Virus record (IMG/VR): IMGVR_UViG_3300041403_000489
Location: 1 to 21,815 of that record
DNA: 21,815 nucleotides
Direction: 5' to 3' (one strand)
DNA from: a virus
Under the pieces are notes generated by a model that did no database searches, was not told the DNA's origin, and worked only from the letters and a program-made list of their open reading frames with translations. Position numbers and translations under genes: made by a program. Positions 18,812 to 21,751 of this stretch are shown here, piece after piece. Each line of letters begins with the position of its first letter. Within the stretch, counting starts at the first letter, position 1.

Positions 18812-18840
18812 TTTACTTTCTCGAGAAATTATAGTATAAT
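18812..18840 (+). promoter_or_regulatory. Sigma70-type promoter
   Basis: TTTACT (18812-18817), 17 bases, TATAAT (18835-18840), preceded by GCATTTTTTGG. The leader carries AAAGAGGAG about 7 bases before the ATG at 18871. Confidence 0.82.
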
Positions 18841-19489: not shown

Positions 19490-19641
19490 CAAGCGAAGAA
19501 TTTCAATTATATGAACGTCGTATAGACAATTGTTTTCGTACAGCAGAAAGTGCACAAGATCCAGATTTTAAAAAGTTTTGGTATCAGACTGCGATGAGTC
19601 TGCTGCGTAAAATGAATCGGTCACTTAGCTCAGCTGGATAG
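19486..19641 (+). CDS. Small unknown protein whose 3' end lies in tRNA-Arg
   Basis: A 51-residue ORF, MTSEEFQLYERRIDNCFRTA onward, helical and polar with FKKFWYQTAMSLLRKMN at the end of the unique part. It starts by ATGA overlap. The last 7 codons and the stop (TAG 19639-19641) are made from the acceptor and D-arm of the tRNA-Arg gene at 19619, so the natural C-terminus may have been lost when the tRNA was inserted there. No family recognised. Confidence 0.55.
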   Translation: MTSEEFQLYERRIDNCFRTAESAQDPDFKKFWYQTAMSLLRKMNRSLSSAG

Positions 19642-19695
19642 AGCAACTGCCTTCTAAGCAGTAGGTCGAGGGTTCGAATCCTTCAGTGACCGCCA
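19619..19695 (+). tRNA. tRNA-Arg (TCT)
   Basis: Full cloverleaf: acceptor GGTCACT/AGTGACC, D-stem GCTC/GAGC, anticodon stem ACTGC/GCAGT with loop CTTCTAA (anticodon TCT, reads AGA), T-loop TTCGAAT and encoded CCA (19693-19695). It serves AGA codons, frequent in this phage and usually rare in bacterial hosts. Confidence 0.93.
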
Positions 19696-19698
19696 AAT

Positions 19699-19783
19699 GC
19701 GGGCATGGTGGAATTGGTAGACACACAAGACTTAAAATCTTGAGACTTCGGTCGTCCCGGTTCGAGTCCGGGTGTCCGTACCA
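19699..19783 (+). tRNA. tRNA-Leu (TAA)
   Basis: An 85-base class II tRNA: acceptor GCGGGCA/TGTCCGT with two G-T pairs, anticodon stem CAAGA/TCTTG with loop CTTAAAA (anticodon TAA), a long variable arm (GACTTCGGTC), T-loop TTCGAGT and encoded CCA. Reads TTA. Confidence 0.93.
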
Positions 19784-19801
19784 AATTATAAAGAGGGAGC
19801 A

Positions 19802-19933
19802 ATGAGTAGAGTAGAACGTATATATAAAAGTACAGTAGCTCGAAAGAGAAGAAAAAGCATTAAGGATATCGTCTTCAAAAGAACTATAAGTCTCTATGCG
19901 AAGATGAGAAGGAAGAAACGTAATAAACGTTAA
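19802..19933 (+). CDS. Very basic 43-residue protein
   Basis: ATG at 19802 with GGGAG 3-4 bases upstream, a short but usable spacing. About 40% of the residues are Lys or Arg (TVARKRRKSIKD, KMRRKKRNKR), with no acidic domain to balance them. It is probably a nucleic-acid-binding peptide. It lies between the Leu tRNA and the gene-free structured block. No family recognised; a chance ORF is possible but the ribosome site and strong bias favour a gene. Confidence 0.55.
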   Translation: MSRVERIYKSTVARKRRKSIKDIVFKRTISLYAKMRRKKRNKR

Positions 19934-19934
19934 T

Positions 19935-20192
19935 TCCTATTTGCAACCGACACCGTATATCTCGGCTCTGCTTAATAAGAAAGGTTTGTCGCTCAATAGA
20001 CACGCACGGACCAACGGTTAGTCCGTCTTTAAAGCGTCCGCTTTGGGCGCTAGGATATGTCCGATTATGCTACGTAGGGTCGACATATCTGACCGGGAAT
20101 TAACCCGCGTTAGATCGATAGCTATCTCTGTGCTGGGCGTCGGTACAGAGCGATATATCAAATGTCCTCTAAGGATTCGGTGGATATAGGGC
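19935..20192 (+). ncRNA. Candidate structured non-coding RNA in the tRNA cluster
   Basis: No open frame with a ribosome site spans this block, which is visibly richer in G+C than the genes around it. It is dense in inverted repeats: ACGGAC/GTCCGT (20006-20035 area), AGCGTCC/GGGCGCT with a 5-base loop (20033-20051), GATATGTC/GACATATC (about 20053-20089), CGGG/CCCG (about 20094-20106) and CTCTGT/ACAGAG (about 20125-20150). TCCTAT near the 5' end can pair with ATAGGG near 20186-20191 to close the whole. No promoter is obvious; it would be cut from the tRNA transcript. No known RNA class was recognised. Confidence 0.5.
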
Positions 20193-20202
20193 GCCCCAAA
20201 AC

Positions 20203-20278
20203 GCTGGAGTAGCTCAACTGGGAGAGCAACTGATTTGTGCTCAGTAGGTTGGGGGTTCGATTCCTCTCTCCAGCTCCA
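20203..20278 (+). tRNA. tRNA-Thr (TGT)
   Basis: Acceptor GCTGGAG/CTCCAGC, D-stem GCTC/GAGC, anticodon stem ACTGA/TCAGT with 7-base loop TTTGTGC (anticodon TGT, reads ACA), T-loop TTCGATT, discriminator T and encoded CCA. The first pairs G1-C72 and C2-G71 fit threonine identity. Bases after the anticodon are G and C rather than the usual A-A. The T-stem has two G-T pairs. Confidence 0.83.
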
Positions 20279-20279
20279 T

Positions 20280-20354
20280 GCGGGTATAGTATAATGGCTA
20301 TTACTGCAGCCTTCCAAGCTGAGGATCGGGGTTCGACTCCCCGTACCCGCTCCA
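20280..20354 (+). tRNA. tRNA-Gly (TCC)
   Basis: Acceptor GCGGGTA/TACCCGC, anticodon loop CTTCCAA on a CAGC/GCTG stem (anticodon TCC, reads GGA), T-stem CGGGG/CCCCG with loop TTCGACT, discriminator T as expected for glycine, encoded CCA. One base separates it from the Thr gene. Confidence 0.93.
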
Positions 20355-20371
20355 CCTTTATAAATAGTAGA

Positions 20372-21559: not shown

Positions 21560-21588
21560 TTTACTTTTTCGGAGAACTGTGGTAGAAT
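21560..21588 (+). promoter_or_regulatory. Sigma70-type promoter
   Basis: TTTACT (21560-21565), 17 bases, TAGAAT (21583-21588), followed by the shared ATATCTA. It begins 3 bases after the previous stop codon. Confidence 0.8.
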
Positions 21589-21594
21589 ATATCT

Positions 21595-21751
21595 AGAATG
21601 AAGAATAGTCGAACGAGTATAAACGTGGTTAAGCCTGTAAACGACTTTAAAATTAAGACGCAGGTGGGAGTGGTCTATTCGCCCTCAGTAGATAGGAATA
21701 CGGGTCCTAAGCACGACTGTAAAAGGCTTACTTATATAGTTTGTTGAGGAG
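21595..21751 (+). ncRNA. Long structured 5' leader (possible cis-regulatory RNA)
   Basis: About 165 bases separate this promoter from its gene, against about 30 for the other promoters of this family, and no ORF with a ribosome site fills them. TAAGCCT (21630-21636) pairs with AGGCTTA (21724-21730), closing a domain. AGTCG (21607-21611) can pair with CGACT at 21642-21646 or at 21714-21718, two exclusive options. The two CGACT copies lie in a 12-base direct repeat (ACGACTTTAAAA and ACGACTGTAAAA). Together this suggests a switching leader. Confidence 0.45.

Follow-up and report, generated by a model that had tools for sequence, protein, structure and literature searches.

GOLLD and ROOL RNAs are phage-encoded and are often found near tRNA islands, GOLLD being much the larger of the structures considered here, often above 800 nt (PMC12286853). 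The manA RNA has also been described (PMC2864571), and the genomes of T4-like cyanophages contain the structured or small RNAs wcaG, glnA, PhotoRC-II, and CfrI (PMC9964418). Phage T4 encodes two small non-coding RNAs, C and D (species 1 and 2), at the border of its tRNA cluster, where they adjoin a tRNA, and the locus examined here has a similar setting.

The window, meaning the whole stretch of DNA that was analyzed, corresponds to a virus record of 21.8 kb (21,815 nt; IMGVR_UViG_3300041403_000489) with a PhoH-like protein and an exonuclease among its phage genes (PHROGs). A first-pass annotation had marked positions 19935–20192 as a gene-free block of raised G+C between tRNA genes and as a candidate new structured RNA. 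Its description of the setting was borne out: tRNA-Arg and tRNA-Leu (19619–19783) lie upstream and tRNA-Thr and tRNA-Gly (20203–20354) downstream, a 43-codon ORF (19802–19933) separates tRNA-Leu from the block, the block has no credible plus-strand ORF, and G+C is 0.47 around it versus 0.39 just upstream and 0.37–0.41 downstream of the tRNAs. The candidate itself was strengthened, as compensatory changes are abundant among homologues. Taken together, the sequence comparisons below indicate that the block is a real structured RNA of the plus strand rather than a chance cluster of hairpins, and that it belongs to a previously uncatalogued family with a well-defined core and a modular architecture.

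Fold and extent of the block

On the plus strand, folding of the block was more stable than in 199 of 200 shuffles (z -3.0), and the minus strand showed no folding excess over shuffles (z -1.2). Most of this signal came from the 3′ half (20032–20172, z -4.4), with the P1–P3 part alone at z -0.4. The single-sequence minimum-energy fold pairs P2 and P3 wrongly and is overridden by covariation; it is covariation, and not folding energy, that provides the proof of the P1–P3 fold. The elements found in and around the block are as follows.

19802–19933, plus strand: 43-codon Lys/Arg-rich ORF, ending 10 nt before P1; weak PHROG match only
19943–19971, plus strand: P1 hairpin, GCA-A-CCGA..UCGG-CUC-UGC, with an asymmetric internal loop, then the tail UUAAUAAGAAAGG; model R1, 48.1 bits
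19984–20002, plus strand: P2 hairpin, UGUC-GCUCAAUA-GACA; 4 of 4 pairs with double-sided changes
20007–20025, plus strand: P3 hairpin, CGGAC-CAACGGUUA-GUCCG; 4 of 5 pairs with double-sided changes, none unpaired
20033–20051, plus strand: hairpin H4 of the 3′ domain, AGCGUCC/GGGCGCU; compensatory G-C to U-A in contig L005
20054–20089, plus strand: hairpin H5 of the 3′ domain, GAUAUGUC/GACAUAUC with a 20-nt loop; kept in four loci, G-C to G-U in contig L004
20088–20114, plus strand: hairpin H6 of the 3′ domain, UCUGA..GGG/CCC..UUAGA; inner pair G-C to A-U in L005
20126–20150, plus strand: hairpin H7 of the 3′ domain, CUCUGUG/UACAGAG; covariation in four loci
20151–20198, plus strand: 3′ end of the block, reaching the 5′ end of tRNA-Thr, with conserved CGATATATCAAAT; alignment of four loci
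21605–21669, plus strand: module B, a separate structured RNA with the pseudoknot AGUCG..CCUG..CGACU..CAGG; model R3, 96.7 bits

Related IMG/VR contigs were gathered by means of DNA patterns and two neighboring proteins. The block occurs at a tRNA cluster in L005 and L003, the sequence of L003 ending inside it; in L004, it stands behind an ORF that we call gene-32-like from its acidic C-terminus (..DDDDTMSYFAKLA), and is split by a tRNA-like insert. This insert (L004 19203–19276), situated between P3 and the 3′ domain, has a T-arm and is not called by ARAGORN. Many other contigs have the 5′ part only. The 3′ domain (20033–20198) has so far been found only in close relatives and comprises four conserved hairpins, three of them with compensatory change, in four sequences only. 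The H7 changes, G-C/A-U and G-U/G-C/A-U, are distributed across the window, L003, L004, and L005; the outer arm of H6 is unchanged, and the first two bases of H6 overlap H5.

Long-range pairings proposed for the block fared less well. The suggested closing helix (TCCTAT with ATAGGG) is unchanged in L005 and absent from L004, where the tRNA-like insert also divides its two halves, and neither of the proposed long-range or pseudoknot contacts (CACCG/CGGTG and TATATC/GATATA) is kept in L005 or L004. As an RNA, the block has no fixed extent but is a mosaic of separable modules, with P1 and P2-P3 widespread and the 3′ domain narrow in distribution.

Module B lies 1.6 kb downstream of the block, behind a promoter-like site at 21560. 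Its pairing is 100%, with three pairs showing double-sided changes, and it recurs in more than 20 related contigs; in some, L026 and L047 among them, P1 follows it immediately. Two further non-coding elements were observed in the vicinity of the modules. One is a recurring hairpin with a conserved CTCCTCTCTCAG, which resembles an anti-Shine-Dalgarno sequence and stands upstream of module B or P1 (L050 9560–9620, L064 1366–1412, and L015 10500–10548); the other is a conserved stretch, GTAAAGTCC..GACTAACTCGCGGGGT..ACTATACCACGTCAAGTGAAGAAG, beside the modules (L032 9282–9365 and L027 9076–9165).

Covariation of the P1 and P2-P3 hairpins

The P2-P3 core is a pair of hairpins with variable stems and nearly invariant loops, NCNNAAUA and CAACGGUUA, which are nearly fixed whichever genes adjoin. 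Model R2, built on this core, matched the window at 19984–20025 with 56.8 bits. In the covariation count, 144 of 144 cells were paired and 52 were changed on both sides, giving a covariation score of 1.06 versus 0.29 in shuffles; shifting the partner by one base reduced pairing to only 34–41%. Across 88 distinct copies, which entered the count if at least 3 of 4 and at least 4 of 5 pairs formed and so were partly selected for pairing, 791 of 792 base pairs were standard, 63 of them G-U, with one C-A; this rule tolerates one mismatch per stem, yet there was just one mismatch overall. As G-U pairs outnumber C-A by 63 to one, the P2-P3 stems are kept as RNA of the plus strand. The P2 loop is mostly (G/C)CNNAAUA and nearly invariant across relatives. 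The P3 loop (CAACGGTTA or CAACGGUUA) is kept in 79 of the 88 copies and resembles a tRNA D-loop, though this is a resemblance only.

P1 has a frame, GCA-N-CC/GG-CUC-UGC, that is invariant in relatives. Among 14 distinct arm sequences, 99% of cells were paired and three pairs were changed on both sides (CCGA/UCGG, CCAC/GUGG, CCAG/CUGG, and CCUA/UAGG). Because MAFFT misplaced the arms of P1 and of A-type P3, pairs were counted and models built after manual extraction of the arms or after filling of the loops with N. Coding was considered for P1, since some relatives would encode the peptide HPAFISWLC, and was rejected because the stems covary, yet loops of differing length put the sequence out of frame. 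One P1 pattern match, L020, lies within a gene and was set aside as a chance match. A helix joining the P1 tail to the P2 loop was likewise abandoned: it can be drawn in L026 (UUAAGG/CCUUAA) and L083 (UACGG/CCGUA) and fails in the window and L005. Model R1 found P1 in 29 of 75 sources at E ~0.01 or better, with one match each. P1 is present in a subset only, and, where the two occur together, it may come before or after P2-P3, as if the unit could be circularly permuted.

Distribution and gene neighborhood

The R2 model gave 25 matches at E < 1e-5, and pattern scans of IMG/VR gave 27 and at least 80 stretches with the core. A pattern scan of genomes from 84,980 species of bacteria and archaea (genome_contigs) yielded one stretch, L258, which was discarded for want of the hairpin arms. 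In 19 phage records, P2-P3 occurred exactly once per record, a count made with one model on records that are mostly contigs of uncertain completeness. These single-copy records include the complete circular genomes of Melnitz (141.5 kb) and RHph_I1_18 (171 kb) and contigs of 173.5, 152.7, and 123 kb. In Methylophilales phage Melnitz (MZ577097), the RNA is at 46563–46644; in Rhizobium phage RHph_I1_18 (MN988519), P2-P3 alone is present (170901–170944, minus strand). One contig, L029, contains inverted copies of one region, probably an assembly artifact. Under strict filters, neither P1 nor P2-P3 was found in T4, HTVC008M, Mosig, S-PM2, P-SSM2, Syn9, S-SSM7, P-HM1, S-SM2, Syn30, or C48C1. Given this absence from ten control T4-like genomes and C48C1, the RNA is not general to T4-like phages. 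The searches point to a two-hairpin core that occurs in many marine T4-like phages, usually once per genome and at changing positions.

The genes beside P2-P3 vary, and include tRNAs, a gene-32-like ORF upstream, or gp33 (in Melnitz), gp44, and other ORF families downstream. P2-P3 is immediately flanked by tRNA genes in the window, L007, L026, and L055, within a few bases of the tRNAs in the last two, and is found in other contig loci with no detected tRNA gene (e.g., L015, L050, L059, L064, and L067). Basic ORFs similar to that of the window precede the RNA in L005, L007, L009, L024, L028, and Melnitz. Short Lys/Arg-rich ORFs directly 5′ of the RNA were seen in several phages (window 19802–19933 and L098 2911–3008) and possibly encode RNA-binding peptides. 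In Melnitz (locus L098), the hypothetical CDS MelnitzEXVC044M_89 (MZ577097 46492–46593, minus strand) lies antisense to P2-P3; this CDS probably does not represent a true gene. In RHph_I1_18 (locus L151; MN988519 168719–170944, minus strand), the RNA heads an operon that ends in CCA-tRNA nucleotidyltransferase.

Possible roles and relation to known RNAs

A single copy, changing neighbors, and fixed loops together favor a trans-acting small RNA over a switch for one gene. We put at about even odds the proposal that the block is a phage small RNA with P2-P3 as its working core, freed from a tRNA operon and acting in trans on one conserved partner. We infer its expression, excision, trans action, and partner as follows. 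The core, often joined to P1 and in the window lineage extended by the 3′ domain, would be transcribed with the tRNA operon, for which the window has a promoter-like site at 18812. RNase P cleavage at the 5′ end of tRNA-Thr (20203) would probably free the 3′ side, and a different nuclease would act on the 5′ side, in the vicinity of tRNA-Leu or of the small ORF, to trim it. The RNA would then present its fixed loops, NCNNAAUA and CAACGGUUA, in trans to the one conserved partner. For this partner, a protein or a component of the translation machinery is more probable than an mRNA target that changes.

Some of the neighborhood data weigh against trans action and suit a cis-acting element equally. 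An ORF starts downstream of P2-P3 in 62 of 76 copies, at a median of 30 nt, and 24 copies precede one ORF family (MSN.KNPFE.R). P2-P3 could then be an mRNA element of intercistronic leaders, whether a protein-binding operator, a processing or stability site, or a put-like antitermination signal, that controls the downstream gene. The intergenic position of P2-P3 agrees with this, as does RHph_I1_18, where P2-P3 occupies the short 5′ UTR of an operon made up of two ORFs and a CCA nucleotidyltransferase gene; manA, which adjoins the RNA in two contigs, is also filed as cis-regulatory. However, the downstream genes are unrelated between phages and are sometimes tRNAs (71 downstream ORFs formed 17 clusters by sequence, including one that represents a spurious ORF within the window block itself), and a search for terminator-like sites gave none at the block. 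Moreover, a regulator of one gene would be expected to stay linked to it, and an element serving operons in general to occur repeatedly in a genome, whereas this RNA does neither, with one copy per record. We therefore favor the trans-acting small RNA and regard cis control as a tentative second choice, appreciably less probable.

It is improbable that the block is functionless in itself and serves the tRNA operon merely as a spacer or a signal for processing, to be removed by RNase P and RNase E. The copies placed directly between tRNA genes in the window, L007, L026, and L055 would fit such a role, but the loops are nearly invariant regardless of neighbors, and many copies adjoin no tRNA. 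A signal at the DNA level, for instance a replication origin or a packaging or recombination site, single-copy by nature, is still less probable: one element per record at a variable place is what it predicts, and an RNA-primed origin would still fit weakly, but the 63 G-U pairs against one C-A describe stems kept as RNA of one strand, not a DNA cruciform.

The trans-acting reading may be taken further. P2-P3 with optional P1 could represent a separate class of RNA gene, present in single copy in T4-like phages that infect marine and other proteobacteria, with permutable, mobile domains, and acting in trans on a conserved component of host translation or the tRNA machinery, for example as a D-arm mimic engaging a tRNA-binding enzyme or a tRNA-cutting defense nuclease; we consider this doubtful as a whole and offer it as speculation. 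If the family is as the comparisons suggest, annotation pipelines overlook a conserved small RNA present in a large group of marine phages. Among the RNAs of bacteria and phages, it would be uncommon for domains to change their order and shift from operon to operon with their fold intact.

The first-pass annotation recognized in the block none of the ornate phage RNAs of the GOLLD and ROOL types, and the Rfam searches agree. Rfam gave no family for the block, either on the window at the gathering threshold or on 19780–20210 at E up to 5, and only tRNAs on the window and eight related loci. BLAST against phages with 19700–20360 returned essentially only tRNAs, and with 19935–20202 alone nothing; a literature search, with most subscription papers outside its reach, found no description of this RNA. 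ARAGORN found no tmRNA in the window, and the block was not recognized as a degenerate tRNA by ARAGORN or RF00005. Descent of the RNA from tmRNA, an idea prompted by the hairpin GACTGCCTAATAGGTC in the Melnitz tmRNA, was dropped: neither R1 nor R2 has a match there, and the likeness is a resemblance only.

That the block is a divergent member of manA RNA, T4 RNA C or D, GOLLD, or ROOL is the least credible reading and already largely refuted: the type of location is the same and manA lies behind P1 or P2-P3 and a gene-32-like ORF in L023 (5204–5369) and L086 (7133–7338), but there it is a separate stretch beside the module and not the same stretch, no Rfam family matched, and R1 and R2 have no match in the T4 rnaC/rnaD region.

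Each of these RNAs nonetheless shares something with the block. manA (RF01745) also occurs in marine T4-like phages, but is ~190 nt with a multibranch fold of its own, and sits in potential 5′ UTRs of metabolic genes, where the window block instead precedes tRNA-Thr. RF01745 gave no match in the window at its gathering threshold of 55.2 bits, none at E up to 5 in 19780–20210, and none in G000, and identity with manA was rejected. Cyanophages P-SSM2, P-HM1, and S-SSM7 have manA, all without P1 and P2-P3; manA was also seen in Pelagibacter phage Mosig (108164–108371, minus strand). GOLLD shares the tRNA-island setting, with tRNAs on both sides of the block, but its Rfam model has no match and the block is ~260 nt. 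ROOL has a complex fold with several pseudoknots; the block has no Rfam match to it, and its proposed pseudoknots are not conserved. For wcaG, glnA, PhotoRC-II, and CfrI, there was no Rfam match in the window or eight related loci. The T4 rnaC/rnaD region (L100) was not matched by R1, R2, or R3, although this test is weak because T4 contributed no sequence to the models; T4 rnaC has a T-arm-like GGGTTCGAATCCC that the window block lacks. By the tests made, the block falls outside T4 RNA C/D, manA, GOLLD, and ROOL, the RNAs nearest to it in setting. With a core of only ~42 nt that occurs in the cultured phages Melnitz and RHph_I1_18, it would, if the family is confirmed, be a compact, widespread, and testable counterpart to the long-unexplained T4 RNA C/D, GOLLD, ROOL, and phage manA.
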